Shown here: positions 360-34,251 of the stretch, piece by piece
How the letters are laid out: the number at the start of each line of letters is the position of its first letter
How positions within the stretch are numbered: the stretch's first letter is position 1
Origin: Sorangium aterium
GTDB taxonomy: Bacteria > Myxococcota_A > Polyangia > Polyangiales > Polyangiaceae
Direction: 5' to 3'
Assembly: GCF_028368935.1 (NCBI RefSeq)
Contig: NZ_JAQNDK010000003.1
Location: 496,001-560,000 of the forward strand
Length of the DNA stretch: 64,000 bases
The notes under the pieces: generated by a model
What the model saw: the letters and a program-made list of their open reading frames with translations, nothing else
What the model was told of the DNA's origin: nothing
Databases searched by the model: none
Translations under genes and position numbers: made by a program

Positions 360-1475
360 TCAGACGCTCTCGCGATCGGGCGCTCGCGCGGCGGGCGACT
401 CCGCTGCGCCGACCGCCGCGGCCGCCTGCAGGCTCGGCGCCGCCTCGGCGGCGCCCGCGGAGGCATGCCGGATGCGCCGCTTCGTCTGCACCATGTGCAC
501 GATCTGGTCGAGGATCACGGCGACGAGGATCACGGCGCCGATGATGATGAAGGTCCAGTTCGGGTCCAGGCGCCAGATGCGTTGAATGCGGTCAGCGTCC
601 TGGTACGGCAGCTGGAACATATTGATGCCGTTGTCGATGACGCGCATCACCGCGGAGCCGATGATGATGCCGAGCACCGTGCCTTCACCCCCGCGAAGCG
701 AGCAGCCGCCGAGCACGGCCGCGGCGATCGCATACATCTCGTACGCGATGCCGACCTGCTGCGACATCTGCCCGATGTACGAGGCGTAACAGACGCCGGC
801 CACGCCGCCGAGGCCCGCCGAGATCACATAGGTAGACGTCTCCACCCGCCTCACGTTGATGCCGGAGTACTCGGCCGCGTCGCGGTTGCCGCCGATCGCA
901 TAAACGTAACGGCCGAACACCGTGAAGTGCAGCGCATAGGTCGCCACGGCGCTCACGGCGAGGAACATCAGGAGCGGGTACGGGACGAGCGCGTCGCTCC
1001 CGCTCTTGAGCAGCCCGCCGTTCGCGAGGGCGAGCAGCGGCGAGCCACCGAGGCTCAGGGTGCCCCCCTGGGCGATGGTCTGCGAGACGCCGCGCAAGAA
1101 CAACATGCCGCCGAGCGTGACGATGAACGGCTGCAGCTTGAGCCGCGTGATCAACAAGCCCTGGCCGAGGCCGATCAGCAGCGCCACGCCGAGCGCCACC
1201 GGAATGCCGATCCACAGCGGGTAGCCCAGGCCGCCGATCTGGGTCGACGAGAGCTTGGCGATGAGGACGCCCGTCAGGCCGATCACGGACCCGATCGACA
1301 GATCGATGCCGCCGGCGATGATGACGAACCCGATGCCCATCGCGAAGATCCCGAGCATCGAGATCTGCCGCAGGGTGTTGATCGAGTTCGACTGCCCGAG
1401 GAAATCCGGGTTCGAGATGTAGAGGCCCAGACACATCACGACGAGCGCGATGGTCATCCCGAGCTCACGCCTCAC
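360..1475 (-). CDS. Sugar ABC transporter permease (RbsC-like)
   Basis: This is the membrane permease of a carbohydrate ABC importer of the ribose/xylose/galactose type (BPD_transp_2 family). It is 371 aa, with many hydrophobic helices and the family segment IAGGIDLSIGSVIGLTG near residue 55-70. A charged, Ala-rich cytoplasmic tail of about 40 residues follows the last helix and is not needed for the fold. The start is GTG at 1475, overlapping the stop of the ATPase gene by four bases (GTGA), which implies translational coupling. It is the last gene of the three-gene importer operon. The sugar is not readable from the sequence; a shared operator with the GH43 gene at 32347-34092 suggests a plant-cell-wall pentose. 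Confidence 0.9.
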   Translation of the reverse strand: MRRELGMTIALVVMCLGLYISNPDFLGQSNSINTLRQISMLGIFAMGIGFVIIAGGIDLSIGSVIGLTGVLIAKLSSTQIGGLGYPLWIGIPVALGVALLIGLGQGLLITRLKLQPFIVTLGGMLFLRGVSQTIAQGGTLSLGGSPLLALANGGLLKSGSDALVPYPLLMFLAVSAVATYALHFTVFGRYVYAIGGNRDAAEYSGINVRRVETSTYVISAGLGGVAGVCYASYIGQMSQQVGIAYEMYAIAAAVLGGCSLRGGEGTVLGIIIGSAVMRVIDNGINMFQLPYQDADRIQRIWRLDPNWTFIIIGAVILVAVILDQIVHMVQTKRRIRHASAGAAEAAPSLQAAAAVGAAESPAARAPDRESV

Positions 1476-3010
1476 GACAGAGCCTCCTTTTCCGCGTGGC
1501 CCGTCATCAAGGTCGCGATCCGCTCCTGGCTGAGCCGTTCCCGCGGCAGCACGCCCTTGATGCGTCGCTCGTGCATGACGGCGACGCGATCGCTCATTCC
1601 GATGATCTCTTCCATGTCCGAGCTGACCATCAAGATCGTGATGCCTTCATCCGCGAGGGCGGCCATGTGGCGGTAGATCTCGGCTTTGGCGCCGACGTCG
1701 ATGCCCCGCGTCGGCTCGTCCAGGATGAGCACGCGCGGGTTCATGGCCAGCCATTTCCCGAGCACCACCTTCTGCTGGTTTCCGCCGGAGAGGTTCACGA
1801 CGGGCTGACGAATGCCGGGCGTCTTCGTCCTCAAGCGCTCCACCTCCGATTCGGCGATCCGGCGCTCCGTCTCCCTGTTCAAGAAGCCCCAGCGGCCGTA
1901 GCTGCCGATGTTGGGCAGGGAGGTGTTCTCTGCGACGCTGAGCGGCAGCACGAGGCCGTGGCGCTTGCGATCCTCCGGCGCCAGGTAGACGCCGCGGTCG
2001 ATGGCATCCCTCGGTCTTCGAGGAGCGAACCCCTTGCCTTCGAGCGTCATGCGTCCCCCGAGCGCCTTCGTCACCCCGAAGATCGTCTGCATGAGCTCCG
2101 TGCGGCCCGAGCCGACCAGGCCGGCGAAGCCGAGGATCTCCCCGCGTCCGGCCGAAAAAGAGACCTGCGCGGGCGCGCCGGGCACGACGAGCCCTTCGAC
2201 CACCAGCACGGGCTCGGTCGATCGACGGGGCCGCCTCTCCGGGAAGTAGTGCGCGCTGAGCTCGCGGCCCACCATCATGGCGACGATCCGTTCGCGCGTC
2301 GCCTCCGCGCGCGTGAGGTCACCGACGTAGCGGCCGTCGCGCAGGACCGTCACCCGGTCCGCCAGCGTCATGACCTCTTCCATCCGGTGCGAGATGTAGA
2401 CGATGCCGATGCCGTCCGCCCGGAGCTTGCGGATGATCCCGAAGAGGTGCTCGGACTCACCGCTCGTGAGCGACGAAGTCGGCTCGTCCATGATGAGGAT
2501 GCGCGCGCTCAGGGCGAGCGCCTTGGCGATCTCGACCATCTGCATCTGGCCGGCGGTCAACGCGGACACCGGGGTCGAGGGCGGGAGCGGCAAGCCCACG
2601 CGCAGGAGCAGCTCCCTGGCGCGGGCGTGCATGTCGCCCTTCGGCAGCGGACGGAGGAGCAGCCCTGTCGCGCCGCCTTCGTTGCCGAGGAAGATGTTGG
2701 CCGCGATGTCCAGGTTTGGCGCCAGCATCAACTCCTGATGGATGAGCGCGATGCCGAGGCGCTTGGCGGCGCGCACGCTCTCGATGGCGACGCTCCTTCC
2801 ATCGATGCGGATCTCGCCCTCATCGGGCTGCAGGGCGCCCCCCAGGATCTTCATGAGCGTGCTCTTGCCGGCGCCGTTCTCGCCCATGAGGGCGAGCACC
2901 TCGCCCGGCTTCAGCGAGAGAGAGACGCCCTGGAGCGCGATCACGCCGGGAAACCGCTTGGTGATCGCGCGCATCGCGAGCAGATCCGGGGCGGACGCTG
3001 TCACGCTCAC
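1472..3010 (-). CDS. Sugar ABC transporter ATP-binding protein (RbsA/XylG-like, double ABC)
   Basis: This cytoplasmic ATPase energises the sugar importer. The 512-aa protein has two fused ABC domains. The first has Walker A GENGAGKST at residues 43-51, a degenerate signature LTAGQ near 150 and Walker B ILIMDEPTSSLT near 170. The second has a degenerate Walker A (GLVGSGRTEL, near 295), a good LSGGNQQK signature near 408 and Walker B VLILDEPTRGIDVG near 430. One competent and one degenerate site is normal for the RbsA/MglA/XylG class. The start is GTG at 3010 and overlaps the binding-protein stop (GTGA). It belongs to the operon led by the binding lipoprotein. Confidence 0.93.
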   Translation of the reverse strand: MSVTASAPDLLAMRAITKRFPGVIALQGVSLSLKPGEVLALMGENGAGKSTLMKILGGALQPDEGEIRIDGRSVAIESVRAAKRLGIALIHQELMLAPNLDIAANIFLGNEGGATGLLLRPLPKGDMHARARELLLRVGLPLPPSTPVSALTAGQMQMVEIAKALALSARILIMDEPTSSLTSGESEHLFGIIRKLRADGIGIVYISHRMEEVMTLADRVTVLRDGRYVGDLTRAEATRERIVAMMVGRELSAHYFPERRPRRSTEPVLVVEGLVVPGAPAQVSFSAGRGEILGFAGLVGSGRTELMQTIFGVTKALGGRMTLEGKGFAPRRPRDAIDRGVYLAPEDRKRHGLVLPLSVAENTSLPNIGSYGRWGFLNRETERRIAESEVERLRTKTPGIRQPVVNLSGGNQQKVVLGKWLAMNPRVLILDEPTRGIDVGAKAEIYRHMAALADEGITILMVSSDMEEIIGMSDRVAVMHERRIKGVLPRERLSQERIATLMTGHAEKEALS

Positions 3011-4026
3011 TTCTTCATTTCAGCGAGCTGCTGTTTGAAGGCCGCCACGTTGGTCTTTTCGATCACGTCGATGCCGGTGTCGATGCTCTTGTTGGCCGGG
3101 ATCTGCGCCTTCGCCGTGTCGGGCTTGACCGAGAGCTCATGCGCCCACTTGCTCGCCAGGTAACCGAACTGAAACGGCTTCTGGACGACCGTGGCCGAGA
3201 TCGTGCCGTTCTCGATGGCCGTGAGCGTCTCCTGTTCCTCGTCGAACACCGCTGCGAGGACCTTCCCCTTCTTCCCGAGCGCCTCGATGGCCGCCGCGAT
3301 GGCGGGGCCGTTGTAGGACCACAGGCCTGCGACGAGCTTCAGGTCCGGGTGCGCGTTGATGATGTCCTCCACGTTGGAGCGCGCCTTCGCGCGGTCGGTG
3401 TTGTCCTCCCGCTTGTCGACGATCTCGATGTTCTTGCCGGCGATCGCGTCCTGGATGCCTTGCAGGCGCTGCTTCGCGTTGTCCGCGGAGAGCGTGCCGA
3501 CGAACACGGCCATCTTACCGCCTTCCGGGAGGAGCTTCACGATATAGGCGCCGAGCGCCTTGCCGGCCTCGTGGTTGTTGGTGCCGATGTAGAGCAGTCG
3601 GCTCGACGCCGGGGCGTCCGAGTCGAACGTGATGAGCTTGCTCTTCTCGGCCACCTTGTTGAGCACCGGGACCTGATCGGCCGGCGCGATGGCGCTCACG
3701 GCGATGGCGTCGTAGCCCTGACTCGAGAGGTTTTCGAGGATCTGGTTCTGCTCCTCCGTGGTGCCGTTCGACGGCATCTTCACGTCGACCTGAACCTTGC
3801 TTTCTTGCTCGTATTTCCGGACGCCCGCCTGAGCGATCTTCCAGAACTCGGACGCGTTGTTGGTGACGAAGGCGAGCTTGACGACCTTCGGCTTCGAGCC
3901 GCCGCCCTCGGCTGGCGCGGCGCCCGTCCCCTCGCTCTTCTCGTTGCACCCCGTCATCGCGAGCAGCCCCAACAGGAAGGGCGCTACGACCGCCCAACCC
4001 TTGCCCCAGGACTTCGTCTCTTTCAC
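3007..4026 (-). CDS. Sugar-binding lipoprotein of ABC importer (Peripla_BP_4 type)
   Basis: This is the extracytoplasmic receptor that delivers the sugar to the permease. The 339-aa product has a lipoprotein signal ending LLAMTGC, with Cys27 the predicted lipidated residue, then a Gly/Pro linker. The mature part is a two-lobed periplasmic binding protein (VKLAFVTNNASEFWKIAQAG...; VDKREDNTDRAKA; the Walker-like hinge region near AVFDEEQETL), as in ribose/xylose/galactose receptors. The start is GTG at 4026, preceded by AAGGAG eight bases upstream. It is the first gene of the operon and is read from the operator-containing promoter at 4251-4279, leaving a leader of roughly 215 bases. Confidence 0.92.
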   Translation of the reverse strand: MKETKSWGKGWAVVAPFLLGLLAMTGCNEKSEGTGAAPAEGGGSKPKVVKLAFVTNNASEFWKIAQAGVRKYEQESKVQVDVKMPSNGTTEEQNQILENLSSQGYDAIAVSAIAPADQVPVLNKVAEKSKLITFDSDAPASSRLLYIGTNNHEAGKALGAYIVKLLPEGGKMAVFVGTLSADNAKQRLQGIQDAIAGKNIEIVDKREDNTDRAKARSNVEDIINAHPDLKLVAGLWSYNGPAIAAAIEALGKKGKVLAAVFDEEQETLTAIENGTISATVVQKPFQFGYLASKWAHELSVKPDTAKAQIPANKSIDTGIDVIEKTNVAAFKQQLAEMKK

Positions 4027-4586
4027 GGCTGGTCTCCTTGCTGATTCACTTCAAGAACGTGTTGACATCACGCGTGGCGTCGCCCTTACCCGGCCGTTGT
4101 CCCCGTGATCTGCCGCAAATCTGGCGGCGCGTCTTTCCACAGTGCGCCCCGTTGGCTGGGGTCTACCCTCCGCGTGCCTGGAGGCCGAACCACTCCTTGG
4201 TCTTTACCATCGGAGTGGATCTGGAGGACAAAGGATGCCCGCTGGAATGCATTGTGAACGTTCACATTTTCGGTGTCAACTCCGATCGGAGGGCGCTGAG
4301 CGCGCGGGACGTCACGGGTTAAGGCTGATCGAAGAATTGTCAGGGCACGGGAACGCGGTCGCCCTGTGCGATCAGGGGCGTTGCGCCTGCCGAAGGCGCG
4401 CAGGGTCTGCGACTCAGCACATCGAGCATGGGCTGAGATGACGGCGCCGGGGGATTTCTGTAGATTAGCAGGAAATATGCCTGTCTTCCGGTACGTGCGT
4501 TGGCGACCTTTGCGCAGCGTGTGATAGGTTGGTGCGATTCGAACATATTTGTCTTGCGACATTGGCTTGAGCGCGCGGAGGTGCCT
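4027..4586. other. Divergent intergenic region
   Basis: This 560-base region separates the minus-strand importer operon from the plus-strand DUF1566 gene. Apart from the importer promoter/operator at 4251-4279 I see no gene. Long frames across it are opposite-strand shadows. A promoter for the plus-strand gene should lie near 4490-4570, where the DNA becomes more AT-rich, but no convincing boxes could be fixed. Confidence 0.6.
4251..4279 (-). promoter_or_regulatory. Promoter with embedded operator for the sugar importer operon
   Basis: On the minus strand a perfect TTGACA (plus-strand 4274-4279) is followed by a 17-bp spacer and CACAAT (4251-4256). The perfect 14-bp palindrome TGTGAACGTTCACA (4253-4266) fills the spacer and overlaps the -10 box. 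A central CG within AACGTT is typical of LacI-family operators. Bound repressor would occlude polymerase. The same arrangement occurs before the GH43 gene at 34223-34251. Confidence 0.75.
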
Positions 4587-7529: not shown

Positions 7530-8561
7530 ATGAGCCAGCCCCCGCTCGACAACAAGACGGACTTCGCCGCGCACCCACAGCTGCTCGTCGATCGGGACGG
7601 CGAGCAGCTGGTCACGATCGTCAAGGCGAGCTTCGAGCTCCAGGGCGACGGCAGCCTCGAGCTCGCGCCCCCCGAGCGCACGCGCGGGGTCCGCCTCGCC
7701 GACCTGCCCTGGGAGGAGAAGAAGCCCGAGAGCGTCGCGTACCCCGCCGACGTCTGCCTGTTCAAGCCGGCGACCGACGTGATCTTCGTGGCCACGGCGT
7801 ACGCGCCGAACGGCAAGGCGGTGCCGTCCTTCGACGTGCGCGTCGAGGTGGGCCCGCTCAAGAAATCGCTCGTCGTGTTCGGCAAGCGGCTCTGGGTGGA
7901 CAAGGGCGCCGCCCTCACCGCGCCTTCGCCCATCGAGCAGATCGACATGCGCTACGACCACGCCTGGGGCGGGCGGGACGACGACGATCCCGCGGCGCCG
8001 CTCGAGGAGCCGCGCAACCCGATCGGCACGGGCGTCACGCGCGCGCCGGCCTCGCTCACCCACCAGCCGGCGCCGGCCATCGAGGATCCCTCGTACCCGA
8101 TCCGGACCGCGAAGACCGGGCCGCCGCCCGCCGGGATCGGGGTCGTCGGCCGGCACTGGGAGCCGCGCCGCGCGTACGCCGGGACGTACGACGCCGCGTG
8201 GCGGGAGAACCGCGCGCCGCTCCTGCCCGAGGACTTCGACCACCGCTTCAACCTCTGCGCCTCGCCGGGCCTCATCGCGGATCCGCCGCTCGCGGGCGGC
8301 GAGCCGGTGCGGGCGCTCAACCTCACGCCCGAGGGGGCGCTCAGCTTCGAGCTCCCGAAGGTGCAGATCGAGATCGAGTTCCACGTGAAGGACCGCGCGC
8401 CGGTCGCCTTCGCGCCCCACCTCGACACAGTGCTCGTCGACCTCTACGCCACCGGCCCGCAGAAGCCGGTGGCCGTCGAGATGGTCTGGCGCGCGCACGT
8501 CAAGGCGCCCCGGCGGATGAAGGACGCGCGCGTGATCGTGCGCGAGCGGGGGCGAGCGTGA
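7530..8561 (+). CDS. DUF2169 domain protein (T6SS accessory)
   Basis: This 343-aa protein matches the DUF2169 pattern throughout: an N-terminal ...QLLVDRDGEQLVTIVKASFEL, a central MRYDHAWGGRD near residue 140, and RNPIGTG followed by PAPAIEDP. DUF2169 proteins are found beside VgrG, PAAR-like or DUF4150 effectors and are thought to load or adapt effectors at the T6SS tip. The gene overlaps the next gene by four bases (GTGA), so the two are probably made together. Three vgrG genes begin about 9 kb downstream on the same strand, consistent with a T6SS-associated role. Confidence 0.85.
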   Translation: MSQPPLDNKTDFAAHPQLLVDRDGEQLVTIVKASFELQGDGSLELAPPERTRGVRLADLPWEEKKPESVAYPADVCLFKPATDVIFVATAYAPNGKAVPSFDVRVEVGPLKKSLVVFGKRLWVDKGAALTAPSPIEQIDMRYDHAWGGRDDDDPAAPLEEPRNPIGTGVTRAPASLTHQPAPAIEDPSYPIRTAKTGPPPAGIGVVGRHWEPRRAYAGTYDAAWRENRAPLLPEDFDHRFNLCASPGLIADPPLAGGEPVRALNLTPEGALSFELPKVQIEIEFHVKDRAPVAFAPHLDTVLVDLYATGPQKPVAVEMVWRAHVKAPRRMKDARVIVRERGRA

Positions 8562-17260: not shown

Positions 17261-19495
17261 ATGCCCCCAATGGCCGCTACCTTCGCCACCTTCTCCCTGG
17301 AGGGCGACAAGCTCCCCGCGGACGTCGCCGTGACCCGCTTCGAGGCCGTCGAGGCGATCTCCACCCCCTACACGGTCGAGGTGCGCTTCGCGACGCTGGA
17401 CGCCTCGTTCCGGGTCGAGGACTGCCTGCGCAGCCGCCTCTGCCTGCGCGTCGTCGACACGTCGGGCCAGGAGCGCCTGTACGACGGCATCGTCGACCGC
17501 GCCGGCTTCGCGCACATCGCGGGCGAGAGCCGCCAGTTCGACGTCCGCCTGCGGCCCGCGCTGGCCGCGCTCGCGCACCGCGAGGGGTGCCGCATCTTCC
17601 AGGAGAAGACCATCGTCCAGGTCGCGCAGTCGGTCTTCGAGGACGCCGGCTTCGGCGACAAGGTCGAGTGGCGGATCGCGAAGGAGTACGAGCCGCGCGA
17701 GTTCATCGTCCAGTACCGCGAGTCGCACCTCAACTTCGTCTCGCGGCTCCTCGAGGACAACGGCCTCTTCTACTACTTCCGGCACGAGGCCGCCGGGCAC
17801 ACGATGATCATCACCGACGACCCCGCCGCCTTCGAGGTGGAGGAGGGGCTGCCGGTGAGCTTCCGCATGGCGCAGGGCGGCCTGCCCGGGAGCCTGCCGC
17901 TCTCGAAGTTCACGAGGACGCGCGCGCTGCGCACGAGCCTCGTCCACCTCCGGGACCACGATTTCGAGAAGCCCGACGTGAAGCCGGAGTCCGCGCTGCC
18001 CCGCAAGGAGGCCATCGCGCTGCCCTACTTCGAGTACCCCGCCGGCTTCACGAAGGGGAGCGTGGGGGCCCGCCGCGCCGAGGCCCGCGTGCGCGAGCTC
18101 TCCGCCGACGCCGACGTGTGCGAGGGCGAGAGCCGCGCGGCCGGGCTCAAGGTGGGCGAGCCGTTCGCCGTCGAGGGCGCCGCGGAGCCGTGCCTGAACG
18201 GCGAGTTCGTGGTCACCCACCTCGTCTCGCGCGGCAACCAGACGCTCACCGGCGGCGCGACGAACTACGACGTCGAGAACCACTTCCGCGGCGTCCCCAA
18301 GGGCGCGCCCTTCGCGGCCGAGCGCCGCGCGCGGCGGCCGCGCATCCGCGGCATCCAGACGGCGGTCGTCACCGGGTCGAGCACCCAGGAGCAGGCGATC
18401 CACGTCGACAAGTACGGCCGCATCAAGGTCCGCTTCTTCTGGGACCGGCAGGGCCAGCAGGACCACACCTCGAGCTGCTGGCTGCGCGTCTCGCAGATCG
18501 CGATGGGCGGCTCGATGATCCTCCCCCGCGTCGGCTGGGAGGTCTCGGTCGCGTTCCTCGACGGCGACCCGGACCGGCCGCTCGTGCTCGGGCGCACGTA
18601 CAACGCGGAGAAGACGCCGCCCGACGCGCTCCCCGCCGCCAAGGCGTCCGGCACGCTGAAGAGCATGTCGTCGCCCGGCGCGGGCGGCCACAACCAGATC
18701 GGCATGTCCGACACCGCGGGGAGCCAGGGGTTCGGCATGCACGCCCAGAAGGACCTCAACGTCACCATCAAGAACGACAAGGTCGAGGAGGTGACGGTCA
18801 ACGAGGAGCAGCACATCAGCGTGAACGGCTCCCGCTCGGTCAAGGTCGACGACTCGACCTCCATCGCTGGCAATCAATCGCTCGACGTCGGCGCGGTGCT
18901 CTCGCACAAGATCACCGGCAACCAGAGCATCTCGATCGGCGGCAACGACACGACCAACGCGATCAGCAACCACGTCGAGAAGGTCACCGGCAACCGCTCC
19001 TACACGGTGAGCGGGAACCAGATCACGATCTCGAACGGCGTCAGGCACTCCATCACCGGGGACATGAGCCGCAAGGTCGGCGCGCTGCAGCTCTCCGGCA
19101 GCCTCGGCTCGATCAACGACAACGTCCTCGGCGGGATGACGGAGACGGTGGGCGCCGTGAAGGCGCAGATCATCAACGGCAGCCACGGCGAGCAGATCAC
19201 GGCCAACAAGGACCAGACCTCGCTGGCGGCGGAGCTCCACCTCACGAAGGGCTCGCTCTCCCACGTGGCGCTCGGCGTCACCAACATGGTCGGCGGCCTC
19301 CATTACCAGAAGCTGGACGGTGATCTCGTGGTGCAGGCGCCGCTCATCACCCTCCTCGGCGCCGTCGGCGTCTTCAAGGGCGGCGGCAGCGAGCTCAAGC
19401 TCGGCGGCGGACCCGTCGTGATCAAGGGGTCGAAGATCGCGGTCAAGGGCGCGCTGGTGGTCAAGATGGGCGCGTCGATGAAGCTCGGATCGTGA
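17261..19495 (+). CDS. vgrG: VgrG tip protein 1 (TssI)
   Basis: This is a spike protein of the type VI secretion needle. ATG at 17261 (or 17270) gives 744 aa. The N-terminal gp27-like part (TYTVEVRFATLD..., RIFQEKTIVQVAQSVFEDAG, QYRESHLNFVSRLLEDNGLFYYF) is followed by a gp5 OB-fold at about residues 365-453 (IHVDKYGRIKVRFFWDRQG, ...GGSMILPRVGWEVSV, GDPDRPLVLGRTYNAE). A C-terminal beta-helix is built of short Gly/Asn-rich repeats (VTIKND, ISVNGS, SIAGNQ). No separate effector domain is evident at its end. It is the first of three vgrG genes on the same strand, 40 bases before the next. Confidence 0.93.
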   Translation: MPPMAATFATFSLEGDKLPADVAVTRFEAVEAISTPYTVEVRFATLDASFRVEDCLRSRLCLRVVDTSGQERLYDGIVDRAGFAHIAGESRQFDVRLRPALAALAHREGCRIFQEKTIVQVAQSVFEDAGFGDKVEWRIAKEYEPREFIVQYRESHLNFVSRLLEDNGLFYYFRHEAAGHTMIITDDPAAFEVEEGLPVSFRMAQGGLPGSLPLSKFTRTRALRTSLVHLRDHDFEKPDVKPESALPRKEAIALPYFEYPAGFTKGSVGARRAEARVRELSADADVCEGESRAAGLKVGEPFAVEGAAEPCLNGEFVVTHLVSRGNQTLTGGATNYDVENHFRGVPKGAPFAAERRARRPRIRGIQTAVVTGSSTQEQAIHVDKYGRIKVRFFWDRQGQQDHTSSCWLRVSQIAMGGSMILPRVGWEVSVAFLDGDPDRPLVLGRTYNAEKTPPDALPAAKASGTLKSMSSPGAGGHNQIGMSDTAGSQGFGMHAQKDLNVTIKNDKVEEVTVNEEQHISVNGSRSVKVDDSTSIAGNQSLDVGAVLSHKITGNQSISIGGNDTTNAISNHVEKVTGNRSYTVSGNQITISNGVRHSITGDMSRKVGALQLSGSLGSINDNVLGGMTETVGAVKAQIINGSHGEQITANKDQTSLAAELHLTKGSLSHVALGVTNMVGGLHYQKLDGDLVVQAPLITLLGAVGVFKGGGSELKLGGGPVVIKGSKIAVKGALVVKMGASMKLGS

Positions 19496-19535
19496 GGGCC
19501 CATGGGCGCCAGTGACGTGAAGAGAGAGGTGAAGA

Positions 19536-21809
19536 GTGGCTGATCATCATGTCCTCGCGATCCCCTCCCTCAGCGTGGAGGGCAAGATCTACCGGGTGCT
19601 GCGCTTCGAGCTCACGGAGCAGCTCTCGGAGCTCACCCGCCTCGAGTGCGAGCTGCTCGACGACGAGGCGGCGCTGCCGAGGCCGAAGGAGGTCCTCGGC
19701 AAGCGCGCGGTGTTCACGCTGTCGCGCAGCGACGACACGCAGACGCGCTCTTTCGCCGGGACGATCGTCCTCGCCGAGCTCGTGCCCGATCCCGACGACG
19801 TGCCCACGCTGCGGATCGAGGTCGCGCCGGCGCTCTGGAACCTCGGGCAGCGCTCCGACTGCCGGATCTTCCAGGACAAGAGCGCGGTCGACATCGTGAA
19901 GGAGGTCCTCGAGGGCGCGGGCGTGCCCGCGAGCCAGCAGGACTGGCGCGTGACCGAGCCCCACCCGACGCGGGTCTACACGGTCCAGTACCGGGAGCGG
20001 GACCTCGATTTCGTGCACCGCCTCCTCGCCGAGGAGGGGATCTACTTCGCGATCCACATGAGGGATGAAGAGGACGTCATCGTCTTCGGCGACTCGCCGA
20101 CCGGCCTCGAGGACATCGAGGGCGCGACGTCGCTGCCGTTCTTCCAGGACTTCGGCGCCGAGGGCTTCGCGGATCGCGTCGTCCGCCTCTCGCGGGAGGT
20201 CTCCGTGCGGAGCGACAAGGTGTTCGTCCGCGACTACGACCCGGAGAAGCCCTCGACGAAGCCGGAGGCGTCGGCCGAGGGGAGCGATCCCGGGGAGCAC
20301 GTGCTCGAGATCTACGAGCACCCGGCGCGCACCGCCGATGCGGGCGTGGCGGAGCGGCTCGCCAAGGTGCTGCTCGACTCGGTGCAGGCGGAGCGCGACG
20401 TCGTGCGCGGCGAGAGCGGCTCGCTCGCGCTGCTCCCGGGCCGGCGCTTCTCGGTCGACGGCCACCCGTACGACCCGCTCAACCAGGAGTACCTCGTGAT
20501 CCGCGCGCGCATCGCCGGCAGCCGGCCGCGGAACTTCGAGCTCTCCGGCCGCGCGGGCGCGGAGGACGGCGCGCGCGACCTCCAGTCGATCTGCGAGTTC
20601 TGGGGCGTGCCGACCGGGACCACGCGCTACCGGCCCCCGCGGCGCGCCCGCGAGCAGGTGATCCCGGGCGCGCAGACCGCGATGACCACCGGGCCCTCGG
20701 GGCAGGAGATCCACACCGACGCGGGCGGGCACGTGAAGGTCGCCTTCCACTGGGATCGCTCCGGAAAGAAGGACGACACATCGAGCCGCTGGATCCGCAC
20801 GAGCCAGGTGCCGACGGGCGGATCCATGCTGCTGCCGCGCGTCGGGTGGGAGGTCACCGTGCGCCATGTCGAGGGCGACGCGGACCGGCCGTTCGTGATG
20901 GGCCGCATGTACAACGCGCTCACGCCGCCGCCCTACGCGCTCCCGAAGGAGGCAGGGAAGAGCTCCCTCCAGACCGTGACGACGCCGGGCGGGGGCAGCA
21001 CCAACGAGCTCCGGATGTCGGACGCGAAGGGCGGCGAGGAGATGTTCATCAACGCCTCGAAGGACATGTCCACCGAGGTGAAGAACAACGCGACCGAGTC
21101 GATCGGCAACAACCACAAGAAGAAGATCGGCGCCGACCAGACGACGAACGTGACGAACAGCATGACGACCAGCGTCGGGTCGAACCAGACGCTCTCGGTC
21201 TCCGGCAACCAGTCGATGAAGATCGAGACCTTCCACGTGGACGACATGGGCGGCGATCACTCGCTCTCGATCGGCGGGAACCGCGACATGAAGATCGGCG
21301 GGGATCACAAGCGCGACGTCACCGGCAACAGCTCGCTCACGGTGTCCGGCAACCAGATCGATCTCGTGGTCGGCTCGGTCACGGATCAGACCCTGGCCGG
21401 CTTCAACCACGAGGTCGGCGCGGCGCTCGTCGAGCTCGCGCTGGGGCACCGCTCCGTGACGGTCCAGGGCGACCGGAGCGAGACGGCCACCGGCGCGAAG
21501 GTGATCGCGGTCAAGTCGGGCCGCGGCGTCCAGGTCGGCGGATCGATGAACGTGAAGGTCGGCGGCGCGATCGTCAACGTGGCGAACGGGAACCGCGTGG
21601 AGAGCTCGCTCGGCACGTACACCGAGCTCGCGGGGGGCGCGCAGCTCGTCAAGGCGAACAACGCCGTCTTCGAGGCGACCGGCGCGCTCACGCTGGTCAT
21701 GGGCGCGTCGATCCTCTCGCTGACGCCCGCGAGCGTCGCGATCATCGGCGTGTCCGCGAAGCTCGACGGCGACGTCTCCGACACCGCCGCGCTGGTGCTC
21801 GACAACTGA
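19536..21809 (+). CDS. vgrG: VgrG tip protein 2 (TssI)
   Basis: A second VgrG, 757 aa from GTG at 19536. It has the same order: gp27-like N-terminus (RIFQDKSAVDIVKEVLEGAG, QYRERDLDFVHRLLAEEGIYF), gp5 OB-fold at about residues 376-466 (IHTDAGGHVKVAFHWDRSGK, GGSMLLPRVGWEVTV, GDADRPFVMGRMYN), then beta-helix repeats (TEVKNN, TTSVGSNQTLSVSGNQ). It differs from VgrG 1 and 3 across the N-terminal 150 residues and the tip, so the three are probably not interchangeable. It ends 13 bases before vgrG 3, in the same operon. Confidence 0.93.
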   Translation: MADHHVLAIPSLSVEGKIYRVLRFELTEQLSELTRLECELLDDEAALPRPKEVLGKRAVFTLSRSDDTQTRSFAGTIVLAELVPDPDDVPTLRIEVAPALWNLGQRSDCRIFQDKSAVDIVKEVLEGAGVPASQQDWRVTEPHPTRVYTVQYRERDLDFVHRLLAEEGIYFAIHMRDEEDVIVFGDSPTGLEDIEGATSLPFFQDFGAEGFADRVVRLSREVSVRSDKVFVRDYDPEKPSTKPEASAEGSDPGEHVLEIYEHPARTADAGVAERLAKVLLDSVQAERDVVRGESGSLALLPGRRFSVDGHPYDPLNQEYLVIRARIAGSRPRNFELSGRAGAEDGARDLQSICEFWGVPTGTTRYRPPRRAREQVIPGAQTAMTTGPSGQEIHTDAGGHVKVAFHWDRSGKKDDTSSRWIRTSQVPTGGSMLLPRVGWEVTVRHVEGDADRPFVMGRMYNALTPPPYALPKEAGKSSLQTVTTPGGGSTNELRMSDAKGGEEMFINASKDMSTEVKNNATESIGNNHKKKIGADQTTNVTNSMTTSVGSNQTLSVSGNQSMKIETFHVDDMGGDHSLSIGGNRDMKIGGDHKRDVTGNSSLTVSGNQIDLVVGSVTDQTLAGFNHEVGAALVELALGHRSVTVQGDRSETATGAKVIAVKSGRGVQVGGSMNVKVGGAIVNVANGNRVESSLGTYTELAGGAQLVKANNAVFEATGALTLVMGASILSLTPASVAIIGVSAKLDGDVSDTAALVLDN

Positions 21810-21822
21810 GGAGGAGGGGAAC

Positions 21823-24594
21823 GTGGCACGCGAGACGATTGCGCACTTCACGATCGACGAGGTCCCCGCGGCGCGGGTGCTCCGCTTCGAGGCGATCCAC
21901 GAGGCCGGCAGGCCGCTCGTCCTCGACGTCGAGGTGTACCTCCACTCGTACCAGGAGCTCGATGCGATGATCGGCAAGCCCGCGGCGCTCTCCTTCGGCG
22001 CGCCCGGGGAGGCGCCGCGCGTCATCGCGGGCACGGTGGAGGCCGCGACGTCGATCGGCTCCACAGAGCTCGGCATCGAGGGGCTGCTGGGCGTCCGCTA
22101 CGCCGTCCGCGTCGTCTCCTCGCTCGCGCTCCTCGCGCGCAGCGTCGACTCGCGGATCTTCCAGGACATGAGCGCCAAGGAGATCGTGGCGAAGGTCCTC
22201 GAGGATCACGGGATCACCCGCGTCGCGTGGCGGCTGAGCGGCGACTGTCCGAAGCGCGAGTACTGCGTGCAGTACCAGGAGAGCGCGCTCGCGTTCATCT
22301 CGCGGCTCATGGAGCACGAGGGCGTCTACAGCTTCGTCGAGGTGGACGCCGACGGCGAGCTCCTCGTCTTCGACGACGACAGCACCGTCGCCGGGCCGAT
22401 CGCGGGCGACCCCGCGCTGCCGTTCCGCCGGCGCACCGGGCTCAGCGCGGCCGACGAGCGCGACGCCATCTACTCGATCCGCGAGCTCGAGCGTGTGCGC
22501 TCTGGCAAGTTCGTCCTCCGCGATTTCGACTTCAAGCGGCCGAAGCTCGACCTCACGGCGACCGCGGCTTCGGGCGAGAACGACGCGCTGGAGCGCTACG
22601 ACTACCCGGGCGGCTACTTCGAGCCGAGCGAGGGGCAGCGCCTCGCGCAGATCCGGCTGGAGGAGGAGCAGGTCGAGCGGCACACCATCGAGATCGACAC
22701 CGTGTGCTCGCGCCTCGCGGTCGGCCAGAAGCTCACGATCACGGACGCCGGCGAGCTCGACGGCGAGTACTTCCTCTTCGCGGTGAAGCACACCTACATC
22801 CACGAGGAGGGCGACGCGCACGGCGGCGAGCGCGCGACGCCGCGCTCCAGGGCGCGGGCGCGCCTCGTGCCGGCCTCCGTGAAGTACAGGCCGCGGCGCA
22901 TCACGCCGATCCCGCTCATCGAGGGGCCGCAGACCGCGACGGTTGTGGCGCCCGCAGGCTCGCAGACCGAGGCGATCCACACCGACGAGTTCGGCCGCTG
23001 CAAGGTGAAATTCCACTGGGATCGCAGCGACGTGATCGACGACAAGGCCTCGTGCTGGATGCGGGTCGCGCAGCTCCAGACCTCCGGCTCGATGATGCTC
23101 CCGCGCATCGGCTGGGAGGTGATCGTCGAGTTCCTCGAGGGCAACCCCGATCGGCCGATCGTGACAGGGCGCCTCTACAACGGCGTCTATATGCCGCCGT
23201 ACGCGCTGCCGGAGGGCAAGACCCGCACGGCGATCCAGACGTCGAGCACGCCGGGCGGCGGCGGAGCCAACGAGATCCGCTTCGAGGACAAGGCGGGCTC
23301 CGAGGAGATCATGGTGCACGCCCAGCGCGACATGAAGACGGTCGCGGCGAACAACGCGAAGAGGAACATCGGCAACAACGAGACGTCGGTCGTCGGGAAC
23401 AACGCGTCGCTCGAGGTCGGCGGCAACCAGACGACGAAGATCACGAAGGGCTCGCAGAACACGGTGGGCGCGAACCAGACGATCAGCGTCGGAGGCAACC
23501 GCAACGTCGAGGTGAACGCGGTGTCGGCGCTTACGGCGAAGGGCAACGCGACGACCACGGTGGGCGGGAACCAGTTCGAGATGGACGGCAACCCTCTCGA
23601 GGCGATGCTCGCGCTCGCGGCGCAGGCGGCGGTGCAGTTCGCGAGCGTGATGGCCAACAACGCGATCGCGGCGGTCCAGGGGCAGGTCGACGGCGCCATC
23701 AACCAGGTGATGGCGCCGATCAACGGCCTGACCCAGAAGGCGGCGGGGGTCGCGGGCGCGATGCAGGCCGTCGCCGGCGGGGACATGAGCCGCATGCCCG
23801 GGATGATCGCGGGCGCGTCGGGCATCCCCGGCGCGAGCCAGCTCGCGGCTTCGATGGGCGGGGGCGGCGGCGGGGGCGGGGGCGGCGCCGCCGGCGGCGC
23901 GCCGGGCGCCGCGGCGCCCAACATGCTCGCCTCGATCGCGTCGAACGTGGCGCAGAGCAGCCTCGCCGGGAAGGTCTTCGTGAAGCCGGAGGCGCTCGCC
24001 TCGGCCCTCGGCATGGACGGGGGCGGCGGCGGCGGCGGGTCGACGGCCAACGTGGGCGGGCCGGACGGCGCCGTCGATGGCGTCGACGCGACCGACCGCG
24101 AGAAGGGGCCCGGGCACACGACCGCCAAGGTCACGGGCACCCACAAGGAGGACGTGGGCTCGATGAAGGTCCTGGGCGCGATCCAGGACATCGACAACAA
24201 CGTGACGGGCAAGAAGACGATCGACGTCGGCGCCGCGACCGTGCAGGTGGCGTTCGGCAGCTACGCCGAGAGCGTCACGGGCTCGAAGAGCGAGAAGGCG
24301 ACGGGCCTGGTCGTCCTCAGCAACGGCGGCGAGAGCGAGACGGTCACCGGCTCGCGCACCGCGATGGTGGGCGGCGCGGTCGTCGACAAGCTCAAGGGGT
24401 CACACGTGGTGCAGGCCGTCGGGCCCGCGACGTTCATCGGGGCCTTCCACAAGGTGGAGGCGAAGGGCGCCATCGTCTTCAAGTGCGGCGCCAGCGAGGT
24501 GGTGATCGACGGCGCCGGCGTCACCATCACGTCCCCGCTCGTGACCATCCTCGCGCCGAAGATCCAGCTGCCGAAGAAGGTCTCGGAGGTCTGA
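21823..24594 (+). CDS. vgrG: VgrG tip protein 3 with Gly-rich tip insertion (TssI)
   Basis: A third VgrG, 923 aa from GTG at 21823 after a GGAGG. The gp27-like and gp5 parts are typical (RIFQDMSAKEIVAKVLEDHG; OB-fold at about 369-462 with IHTDEFGRCKVKFHWDRS and GNPDRPIVTGRLYNG). The beta-helix is interrupted from about residue 590 to 760 by a helical Ala/Gln-rich stretch and two poly-Gly runs (near 680 and 735). The repeats then resume (EKATGLVVLSNGG, TAMVGGAVV). The insert may be a flexible effector docking or partner-binding arm. It overlaps the following DUF6484 gene by one base, indicating joint expression. Confidence 0.92.
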   Translation: MARETIAHFTIDEVPAARVLRFEAIHEAGRPLVLDVEVYLHSYQELDAMIGKPAALSFGAPGEAPRVIAGTVEAATSIGSTELGIEGLLGVRYAVRVVSSLALLARSVDSRIFQDMSAKEIVAKVLEDHGITRVAWRLSGDCPKREYCVQYQESALAFISRLMEHEGVYSFVEVDADGELLVFDDDSTVAGPIAGDPALPFRRRTGLSAADERDAIYSIRELERVRSGKFVLRDFDFKRPKLDLTATAASGENDALERYDYPGGYFEPSEGQRLAQIRLEEEQVERHTIEIDTVCSRLAVGQKLTITDAGELDGEYFLFAVKHTYIHEEGDAHGGERATPRSRARARLVPASVKYRPRRITPIPLIEGPQTATVVAPAGSQTEAIHTDEFGRCKVKFHWDRSDVIDDKASCWMRVAQLQTSGSMMLPRIGWEVIVEFLEGNPDRPIVTGRLYNGVYMPPYALPEGKTRTAIQTSSTPGGGGANEIRFEDKAGSEEIMVHAQRDMKTVAANNAKRNIGNNETSVVGNNASLEVGGNQTTKITKGSQNTVGANQTISVGGNRNVEVNAVSALTAKGNATTTVGGNQFEMDGNPLEAMLALAAQAAVQFASVMANNAIAAVQGQVDGAINQVMAPINGLTQKAAGVAGAMQAVAGGDMSRMPGMIAGASGIPGASQLAASMGGGGGGGGGGAAGGAPGAAAPNMLASIASNVAQSSLAGKVFVKPEALASALGMDGGGGGGGSTANVGGPDGAVDGVDATDREKGPGHTTAKVTGTHKEDVGSMKVLGAIQDIDNNVTGKKTIDVGAATVQVAFGSYAESVTGSKSEKATGLVVLSNGGESETVTGSRTAMVGGAVVDKLKGSHVVQAVGPATFIGAFHKVEAKGAIVFKCGASEVVIDGAGVTITSPLVTILAPKIQLPKKVSEV

Positions 24595-32346: not shown

Positions 32347-34092
32347 TCAGCTCGTCACTCCCGGACGACGCCCCCTCCGGCCGCGCTGCCGGAGCCCCAG
32401 GGACGCCGCGAGCAGCGCCGTCAGCGCGAGGGCACCCCCGGACGGCGCGCGGCTCGCCGAGCGGCAGCTACAACCAGCCGGCTCGCCCGACTCCTCGCCG
32501 GAGGTGCCCCCCGACGACGCCTGGGCGGCTGACGTTGAGCTGGGGGACCCTCCACCCGTGGCCGTGCCCGTCGAGGGCGCTCCTCCGGAGCCGGAGCCGG
32601 AGCCGGCGCCACCGCCGCTGCTGGCGCTGACGCTGCTGACGCTGCCGTCGCCGCCGCCGCTCGTGCTTCCCCCCGTGCCACCCCCGCCGGCGCCCTCGCC
32701 CCCGACGGGCGAGAACTGCCAGAAGTTCATGTTGAAGAGGTTCGACCCGCCGCCGGTGAAGACGAGATAGAGATCGTGCACGCCTGCGGCGCCGTCGACC
32801 GCACACGACACGTCGCTCCACTTCTGCCAGCCCCCCGTCGCCCCGACCGCGCAGGTGCCCACGAGCTTGCCGTCGCGCGCATCCAGGCGGAGCTCGATGC
32901 TGCCCCCCTCCGCGCCGCTCGCGACGCGCGCGCGGAAGCTCTCCGCCCCTTCGCCGAAGTCGACCCCGCGGAGGCGCACCCAGTCTCCGTTGTTGATGAG
33001 CGAGAGGTCCATCCCGCCCTCCTCGCAGCGCTCGGTCTCGATACCGCTCTGCGCGTTGAAGGTCTCGGCCTCGACGCGCGCGTAGGGGTCGAGGTTCGCG
33101 AGCTGCTTGAGCCCGTCCGTCGTGTAGGTCACCGGCACGATCGAGCCGTCTTCCTTGTAGGTGAACGACTCGATCCCGAGGTTCCGGCGATAGCCCGGGG
33201 GCTCGCCGGCGTCGTTGGCGACGGAGCGATTGTGGTAGGCGTGGTACCAGGAGCCGCCGAACTCGAAGATTGCCGCGTGGTTGTTGTTGTTGTTGTTCTT
33301 CGGCGGCTGGGGCCCCACCGTGCCGCGGTGGGTGAAGCCGGAGGTGGGGCTCGAGCTCGTGAGGTAGTCGATCCGCATGCCGTTCGCAGGGTTCGTCGAG
33401 TACGACAGATAGTAAACGCCGTTCCGCTTGTGCATCCACGAGGCCTCGAAGAAGTACGGGACCGTGATCGTGGAGGCCGAGCCCGAGACGCTCACCATGT
33501 CGTTGTTCAGCTTGATGACGCGCGCGTTCTGCTCGCCGTTGCCGCCGAAGTAGAGGTACGCCTGGCCGTCGTCATCGATGAAGACCCCCGGATCGAAGAG
33601 CCAGATGTTCTGGCCCGAGGCGCCGGGGGTGCTCGAGGTGATCAGGGCGCTGCCCTTCGCGTCTCTGAACGGTCCGGTCGGGCTGTCGCTCTTGGCGACG
33701 CCGATACCTGATCCGTTGTTGGCGAAGTACATGTAGATGTTGCCGTTGCGCTCCACGAGCGAGGGGGCCCACGTGTTGGCCGCCCAGGAGGCGTCGCGGG
33801 GCACGCGGATCACTTCCCCGTGGTCGGTCCAGTTCTTCAGGTCGCTGCTCGAGATGGCCACGAACGAGGCCATCTTGTAGCCGTCGTCCGAGCCGTCCTG
33901 TTTGACGTTGTCGTCGTCGTTCGAGGCGTAGAGGTAGACCCGCCCGTCGTGCACCAGCGAGGCCGGATCGGCGAGGTAGCGGTGCGAGGCGATGGGGTAA
34001 TCGGCCAGCGCGGAGGGGCTCGCGACGAGCCCGACCGAGGTGAGCGCGAACCCGCAACAAGCCATTCTCGCCAATGTACGTGAGCGACGCAT
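32347..34092 (-). CDS. Secreted GH43 arabinoxylan hydrolase with CBM6 and MYXO-CTERM tail
   Basis: ATG at 34092, after AAGGTG, gives 581 aa with a clear signal peptide (MACCGFALTSVGLVASPSALA). A five-bladed GH43 domain follows, with the base Asp in RYLADPASL, the pKa-modulating Asp region LFDPGVFIDDDGQ and the acid Glu in FFEASWMHKRNGVYYLSYS. A CBM6 module comes next (RVEAETFNAQSG...LINNGDWVRL...TGGWQKW...NMNFWQF). A long Ser/Gly linker leads to a C-terminal tail, CSCRSAS...ALTALLAASLGLRQRGRRGRR, that fits the MYXO-CTERM sorting signal for surface anchoring. Substrates are likely arabinoxylan or arabinan side chains. An alternative upstream ATG at 34128 would spoil the signal. Regulation shares the operator of the importer operon. 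Confidence 0.9.
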   Translation of the reverse strand: MRRSRTLARMACCGFALTSVGLVASPSALADYPIASHRYLADPASLVHDGRVYLYASNDDDNVKQDGSDDGYKMASFVAISSSDLKNWTDHGEVIRVPRDASWAANTWAPSLVERNGNIYMYFANNGSGIGVAKSDSPTGPFRDAKGSALITSSTPGASGQNIWLFDPGVFIDDDGQAYLYFGGNGEQNARVIKLNNDMVSVSGSASTITVPYFFEASWMHKRNGVYYLSYSTNPANGMRIDYLTSSSPTSGFTHRGTVGPQPPKNNNNNNHAAIFEFGGSWYHAYHNRSVANDAGEPPGYRRNLGIESFTYKEDGSIVPVTYTTDGLKQLANLDPYARVEAETFNAQSGIETERCEEGGMDLSLINNGDWVRLRGVDFGEGAESFRARVASGAEGGSIELRLDARDGKLVGTCAVGATGGWQKWSDVSCAVDGAAGVHDLYLVFTGGGSNLFNMNFWQFSPVGGEGAGGGGTGGSTSGGGDGSVSSVSASSGGGAGSGSGSGGAPSTGTATGGGSPSSTSAAQASSGGTSGEESGEPAGCSCRSASRAPSGGALALTALLAASLGLRQRGRRGRRPGVTS

Positions 34093-34222
34093 GTTCACCT
34101 TACCTGTTGGTCCAGAGCCCTTGATCACGGCCGCTCGGGCGGCGCTTCGCCCCCGAACTGGTACAGGCGAGGTCCCGAGCGCAGGCTTCCAGGGCGAAGC
34201 GAAAGGATATCCCTGGGGGCAA

Positions 34223-34251
34223 AATGTGAACGTTCACATGGCCGATGTCAA
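34223..34251 (-). promoter_or_regulatory. Promoter with embedded operator for the GH43 gene
   Basis: On the minus strand TTGACA (34246-34251), a 17-bp spacer and CACATT (34223-34228) form a promoter. The perfect 16-bp palindrome ATGTGAACGTTCACAT (34224-34239) sits in the spacer and overlaps the -10, exactly as at 4251-4279. The predicted leader before the ATG at 34092 is about 125 bases. No regulator gene for this site is in the window. Confidence 0.78.

Follow-up and report, generated by a model that had tools for sequence, protein, structure and literature searches.

Two sugar-locus promoters of Sorangium aterium appear to belong to a large AraR regulon that grew by copying of the araR-araB region

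Two promoters with one operator

The window analyzed here, a 64-kb stretch of the Sorangium aterium genome taken at its full length, contains a gene for a secreted GH43-CBM6 enzyme and the genes of an ATP-binding cassette (ABC) sugar importer, each preceded by a promoter of the same build: TTGACA, a 17-bp spacer, and CACAWT, with the palindromic operator TGTGAACGTTCACA ending the spacer and overlapping the −10 box (Table 1). Both promoters (positions 34223-34251 before the GH43 gene and 4251-4279 before the importer) are on the minus strand. From the comparisons below, it is very probable that both are promoters of one large regulon of the arabinose regulator AraR, which grew largely by copying of the araR-araB region.

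The preliminary description of this DNA claimed the same operator and the same promoter geometry at the two loci, and both hold. At up to two mismatches, the 14-mer TGTGAACGTTCACA occurs at these two sites only in 64 kb (0.02 expected; none of 100 shuffles gave two), and a 29-bp pattern of promoter plus operator, at up to three mismatches, again finds just these two. The finer detail of CACATT with a 16-bp palindrome is right for the GH43 promoter but not for that of the importer, which has CACAAT and a 14-bp palindrome.

Downstream of the GH43 operator, a leave-one-out hidden Markov model (HMM) of the promoter family scores 14.5 bits, a value reached by none of 300 shuffles (top shuffle, −1.2). 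The GH43 leader also contains a 15-nt inverted repeat, 87% complementary, at 34143-34157 and 34187-34201. Relatives of the GH43 gene stand under a promoter copy in Sorangium strains So ce26 (77.6%) and So0008-312 (94.7%), and orthologs of the importer (88 to 89%) have a same-strand match to the promoter model 1.2 to 1.9 kb upstream in So ce26 (where one gene intervenes between promoter and importer), So ceGT47, and So0008-312; So0157-2 is without a close importer ortholog (best, 41%). On this sequence evidence, the GH43 copy is assigned to the family through its promoter and leader, and the importer copy through its promoter core and its linkage in sister genomes. Model matches leave the substrate of the importer unsettled: its ATPase is nearest to AraG yet under that model's cut-off, and its binding protein scores far under the cut-off of every model that it matched.

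A genome-wide promoter set and its likely regulator

The genome that contains the window (G000) comprises 13.47 Mb in 7 contigs; its genes were predicted with our own simple gene caller, whose start codons are rough (for GH43-CBM6 it chose the in-frame ATG at 34065 instead of that at 34092). Scanned across this genome, the motif is not common at random positions: the 14-mer has 15 exact and 33 one-mismatch sites, 48 in total (reversed-pattern control, 1), 47 of which fall outside predicted genes, and TGTGANNNNTCACA (TGTGA-N4-TCACA) has 53 (control, 0). The sites are spread over six contigs. In 37 of the 48, TTGACA is matched at five or more of six positions exactly 13 nt upstream of the operator. 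The last T of the −10 box, which lies outside the palindrome, is present in 38/38 sites with a TTGACA-like box, and its mirror position is unconserved (A in 15 and C in 14 of the 38), which supports their reading as promoters. The 11 sites lacking TTGACA at this offset are a mixed set that includes one with TTGACA at −12, some that accompany a nearby promoter as second sites, one within a predicted gene (L011), and one in a repeat-like stretch (L020). What had been described as a small regulon is therefore some 45 promoters in G000 (47 model matches at E ≤ 0.01, and at least 47 copies in the loci examined). Copies often form back-to-back divergent pairs 250 to 500 bp apart, giving two AraR promoters per intergenic region (e.g., C6:121990/122326, C4:290113/290637, and C4:652545/653075).

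G000 encodes four proteins with a LacI-type helix-turn-helix. The AraR candidate (C3:840661) belongs to the LacI family and is encoded 310 kb away from the GH43 site. Predicted operators stand upstream of its gene at C3:840176 and 840534, and araB-araA-araD and a sugar ABC system are 6.5 kb away; araB and araA clear the cut-offs of the ribulokinase and L-arabinose isomerase models. In So ceGT47 (L105) and So0008-312 (L106), an exact operator separates its ortholog (89 to 91%) from a divergent araB; in So ce26 (L104), the ortholog is no more than ~3 kb from araB, and another gene intervenes. Operators occur near the AraR orthologs of all three of these strains and of So0157-2. In two genomes from other genera of the same family (G014 and G045), a 70 to 72% identical protein stands beside araA and araD (69 to 75%), with TTGACA and operator. 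Judging from this linkage, AraR is most likely the regulator of these promoters, in keeping with the earlier prediction of a LacI-family sugar regulator encoded outside the window. Upstream of the G000 araB promoter, where sister genomes carry araR, there is a run of GTGGTC-type repeats (L029, ~8340-8480), which may mark a rearrangement that separated araR from araB.

Operator and recognition helix also vary together, as would befit a LacI-family protein. The helix reads SYQTVSR in four Sorangium genomes and SHQTVSR (Y to H) in So0157-2, and TGTTA half-sites make up 23/80 in So0157-2 versus 0/300 in the four SYQTVSR genomes; when promoters of So0157-2 and G000 are paired by target, 9 of 19 pairs have TGTTA on the So0157-2 side, the araB pair included, and none on the G000 side. 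Since the copy-calling HMM was trained on G000 operators, TGTTA sites of So0157-2 may be undercounted. So0157-2 offers a natural experiment in which a one-residue repressor change can be traced over some 40 promoters.

Relics of araB and araR beside the promoters

Homology among the aligned promoters (n = 37) reaches far past the operator, and the downstream consensus enters the start of araB. When an HMM of the 36 non-araB copies was run against 499 gene 5′ ends, araB nt 1-80 came out on top (E = 5.9e-10), with two more gene ends passing the inclusion threshold (E = 0.006 and 0.007). The relics were sought in five Sorangium genomes (G000, So ce26 [G001], So ceGT47 [G003], So0157-2 [G004], and So0008-312 [G005]). 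Copies were drawn from loci around the listed model matches (one weak listed So0157-2 match is not included); all copy counts are lower bounds and count sequences, not independent events. An araB relic that beats 100/100 shuffles is present in 70/185 of the listed non-araB copies, in 69 colinear with the operator, as compared with 0/6 outgroup promoters and 3/150 random stretches (drawn from loci also holding copies, and scored with 60 shuffles instead of 100). A lenient alignment to full-length araB gave meaningless long matches and was replaced by strict scoring.

Upstream of the operator lies a second block, the antisense 5′ end of araR; in So ceGT47 and So0008-312, the araR ATG and the operator are 49 to 50 nt apart. 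The araR test covered 189 of 190 copies (one was too close to a locus end) and found relics in 64/184 non-araB copies (random stretches from the same kind of loci, 4/150); of these same 184, 68 have araB relics, 35 have both (~24 expected under independence), and 97 have at least one. The HMM that called the copies takes in about the first 30 nt of araB but no part of the region in which araR relics lie, which makes the araR relics the more independent finding. Colinear relics of both genes indicate that the copied unit was, most simply, the whole araR′-promoter-araB′ region.

The relics are decayed. In the 60 strict araB blocks, mismatch rates over codon positions are.198/.181/.179 and 46 blocks are frame-broken, and the ATG is kept in 26 of 69 relics; live araB pairs differ chiefly at third codon positions. 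The araR relics have rates of.168/.123/.154, with 32/65 strict blocks frame-broken, a weaker decay signal than that of araB. Relic ends cluster at araR nt 66-71 (28/65 strict blocks, of which one is the actual ara locus of So0008-312) and at araB nt 72 (19/60), and some araB relics extend to nt 177 (three) or nt 260 (one).

Age and distribution of the copies

Homologous promoter copies stand before nonhomologous genes, and they are neither recent nor near-identical: among 170 pairwise matches in G000, the 40 longest are 67 to 87% identical. Where a first gene under a copy has a match in G000, the gene matched likewise stands first under a copy in 24/28 cases in So ce26, 16/20 in So ceGT47, 18/23 in So0008-312, and 19/25 in So0157-2, compared with 8/40, 2/16, 2/18, and 2/15, respectively, for other genes of the same loci; a match here is a best match of ≥60% within the G000 loci examined rather than whole-genome orthology, and two So0157-2 copies share a single G000 target. 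Judging by this conservation of first genes, much of the copying seems to predate the divergence of these genomes.

The family is otherwise narrowly distributed. The exact 14-mer occurs in 6/6 genomes of the genus and 0/33 others among the 39 compared, which are G000 and its relatives. Promoter model R1, built on 31 of the 37 G000 copies (both window copies included, six weak ones left out), has 47 matches at E ≤ 0.01 in G000, 5 in the partial metagenome-assembled genome (MAG) G002, and, over 29 further genomes of the family, 5 weak ones (E no better than 1.6e-4), four of these five matches being in the two genomes with an AraR ortholog. Across 84,980 species, each represented by one genome (records of the window's own genome may be missing from the set), the exact promoter-plus-operator pattern was found in 37 stretches: 26 named Sorangium, 2 from Polyangiaceae/Myxococcales MAGs, and 9 others (Holophagaceae and Actinobacteria).

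A scenario of growth by copying and its alternatives

In the scenario that we favor, AraR bound to the palindrome would cover the last part of the spacer and overlap the −10 box, shutting out RNA polymerase until L-arabinose or a close product released it. Copying would have involved the intergenic DNA between the divergent araR and araB together with a truncated 5′ end of each gene, often ~66 to 71 nt of araR and 72 nt of araB and sometimes more. Copies presumably landed ahead of genes that serve sugar uptake and the breakdown of arabinoxylan, for the most part earlier than the divergence of the Sorangium genomes compared here. Their gene stumps would since have decayed, promoter and operator being retained, and the regulon would have grown largely by copying, not by dozens of independent operator births.

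Several observations weigh against this scenario or parts of it. Neither relic exceeds 100 shuffles in 87/184 non-araB copies, both window copies included, and the descent of these is read from promoter, operator, or leader; the araB coding relic sought in both window copies is in neither, and the importer copy gave no leader signal in the leave-one-out test that detected that of GH43. The araB promoters of G000, So ce26, and So0157-2 (3/5 araB loci) are without an araR relic, and in So ce26 other sequence separates araR and araB. The partial MAG G002 has motif and model matches, yet no AraR was found in it, and its two LacI matches carry other helices. G045 pairs an SHQ helix with a TGTGA operator, which makes the correspondence of helix and operator at best a relaxation. 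Lastly, G000 encodes a second AraR-like protein (C4:625714; L045:8655-9707), 87% identical and with the same recognition helix; So ce26 and So0008-312 have similar second copies.

The copies without relics, and an importer promoter reduced to its core, would suit an ordinary regulon, with operators born independently inside promoters already present and with shared flanks that are common promoter elements under selection, and comparative-genomic work commonly reads regulon expansion as single-site gain (PMC5343134). We nevertheless consider this very unlikely: more than half of the copies tested for both relics carry colinear, decayed ends of araB or araR that a promoter has no need of, and the araR relic region is absent from the model that found the copies. 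Still less credible is that the shared leader is a functional element, either a leader peptide or a regulatory RNA. Many copies do have in common the ~70 nt that follow the start codon, with a short frame surviving in some (such as MRTEAFVV* and MRAETFVF*), but most araB relics have lost the ATG, most strict blocks are frame-broken, mismatches fall about equally on the three codon positions, a consensus fold computed from 17 leaders (a gap-rich alignment) contains no base pair, and the window has no Rfam match. A riboswitch or leader-peptide attenuator was accordingly dropped as a candidate, there being no conserved RNA structure and no maintained reading frame. That the operators are read mainly by the paralog at C4:625714, or by both proteins, with xylose or an arabinoxylo-oligosaccharide as inducer, seems unlikely. 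The 87% identity and shared recognition helix of the two proteins and the presence of a xylanase (GH10), GH43, and GH115 among the targets would agree with it; in the 18 kb around the paralog, however, no operator-like site was found at up to three mismatches (the C3 protein has two upstream), relatives of the C3 protein sit with ara genes, and So0157-2, with three LacI matches, has no second such protein and yet has at least 40 copies. The paralog possibly acts on the same operators with another inducer.

Growth by copying itself may have taken either of two routes. The araR-araB region could well have been a discrete, nonautonomous mobile promoter cassette with edges at about araR nt 67 and araB nt 72, followed by drift in So0157-2, although we hold this only tentatively. 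It is also conceivable, if somewhat more doubtful, that araR-araB DNA spread without any discrete cassette by segmental duplication, possibly beginning near the ara locus, followed by rearrangement and the loss of genes. Downstream edges of pairwise homology that range from ~0 to +300, the few copies running to araB nt 177 or 260, several copies around the ara locus in sister genomes, and the lack of flanking inverted repeats, a mark of MITE- or IS-borne promoters, at the two window copies all point toward duplication; the pile-up of edges at araR nt 66-71 and araB nt 72, such as a founder cassette would give, and the spread of sites over six contigs point away from it. If there was a cassette, its spread would have built a regulon of some 30 to 50 promoters within one genus, and the So0157-2 lineage would later have seen joint drift of repressor and operators.

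Relation to known systems

The recognition helix of E. coli LacI is SYQTVSR and its half-site is TGTGAGC. Helix and half-sites are alike in the Sorangium AraR system, which differs in its pathway, its genome organization, and its ~45 sites. Bacillus AraR, a regulator of arabinose utilization, has a GntR-type DNA-binding domain. Like it and like BtAraR of Bacteroides, an arabinose-utilization regulator described as an NrtR-family protein (PMC4666351), the Sorangium AraR would control arabinose use, but it is of a different DNA-binding family. In LacI-family sugar regulons, as described by Ravcheev et al. 2014 (PMC4052901), operators are as a rule even palindromes with a central CG, which TGTGAACGTTCACA fits, and autoregulation, the ara-gene context by sequence, and carbohydrate targets are likewise shared; the difference here is a promoter family with gene relics. 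Sorangium is not named in the main text of that paper, and AraR appears there only in a reference title. A search of the open-licence literature turned up neither a study of an AraR regulon in Sorangium nor one of promoter copying of this kind.

Mobile promoters, the subject of Matus-Garcia et al. in 2012 and van Passel et al. in 2014, are reportedly recent and very similar copies. The Sorangium promoters resemble them in that a single promoter has been copied ahead of unrelated genes within a genome, but they come with a repressor operator and with remnants of the two source genes, and their copying seems for the most part to predate the genome split. These studies on mobile promoters and promoter propagation are cited in PMC8049555 and PMC9208149.

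How regulons gain members is usually inferred from site patterns. As a sugar regulon this one is ordinary, and its interest lies in the traces of copying: source-gene stumps on about half of the promoters make the source and direction of copying readable from sequence.

Genes under the promoters

By sequence, the genes under the copies read as an arabinoxylan and arabinan toolkit and provide a candidate set of arabinose-responsive promoters for Sorangium. Five are GH43 genes (L007, L009, L013, L027, which is that of the window, and L039), and other glycosidases are GH62 (two), GH54, GH127, GH10, GH115, and GH31 (two), along with a GH141-like and an alpha-galactosidase-like protein, a SASA esterase, and several more esterase-like proteins. 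There are also an aldose epimerase, sugar kinases, the ribulokinase operon (araBAD), and ABC sugar importers (that of the window, L026; L037; and one behind araBAD). The preliminary suggestion of a pentose or hemicellulose link is thus supported, the targets being mostly predicted arabinoxylan enzymes. A few first genes have weak or no Pfam matches (L017, L031:3464, L035, and L041:9364).

Among the unexpected members are DUF1592/DUF1552 genes: operons of DUF1592/DUF1588/DUF1595/DUF1585/DUF1587 type, mostly with a DUF1552 partner, stand under AraR promoter copies (Table 1), and five of the 28 PF07631 matches in G000 are in such operons. The regulon would tie these function-unknown pairs to arabinoxylan use; in the open-licence literature, no paper pairing DUF1592 with DUF1552 was found, although DUF1592 alone does occur. 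Another unexpected member is an ECF-type sigma factor (L043:9825-10442), which is the first gene under a copy, as is its So0157-2 relative (81%), and is a possible second regulatory layer.

Table 1. Positions of promoter elements and genes in the window, and of DUF1592-type operons at other loci (locus:positions)
Feature	Position	Strand	Basis or remark
GH43 operator TGTGAACGTTCACA, AraR-type, predicted	34225..34238	-	inside 16-bp palindrome ATGTGAACGTTCACAT, 34224-34239
GH43 promoter −35 box, TTGACA	34246..34251	-	motif scan
GH43 promoter −10 box, CACATT	34223..34228	-	motif scan; overlaps operator
GH43 leader block GGGATATCCTTTCGCTTCGCCCTGGAA, common to araB promoter family	34187..34213	-	leave-one-out HMM, alignment
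GH43-CBM6 gene, secreted	32347..34092	-	likely start, ATG at 34092
Importer operator, AraR-type, predicted	4253..4266	-	14-bp palindrome
Importer promoter −35 box, TTGACA	4274..4279	-	motif scan
Importer promoter −10 box, CACAAT	4251..4256	-	motif scan
Importer sugar-binding periplasmic lipoprotein (Peripla_BP_4)	3007..4026	-	gene calls and domain match
Importer ABC ATPase, nearest AraG	1472..3010	-	model search; under that model's cut-off
Importer permease (BPD_transp_2)	360..1475	-	gene calls and domain match
DUF1592-type operons	L029:10623-13672, L033:5118-7972, L040:13328-16413, L042:1112-4152, L110:5528-7246, L041:4545-6476		

Elsewhere in the window, positions 17270-24594 hold three big adjacent genes with similar starts (741, 757, and 923 aa), whose products resemble, by eye only, secretion-system spike proteins.
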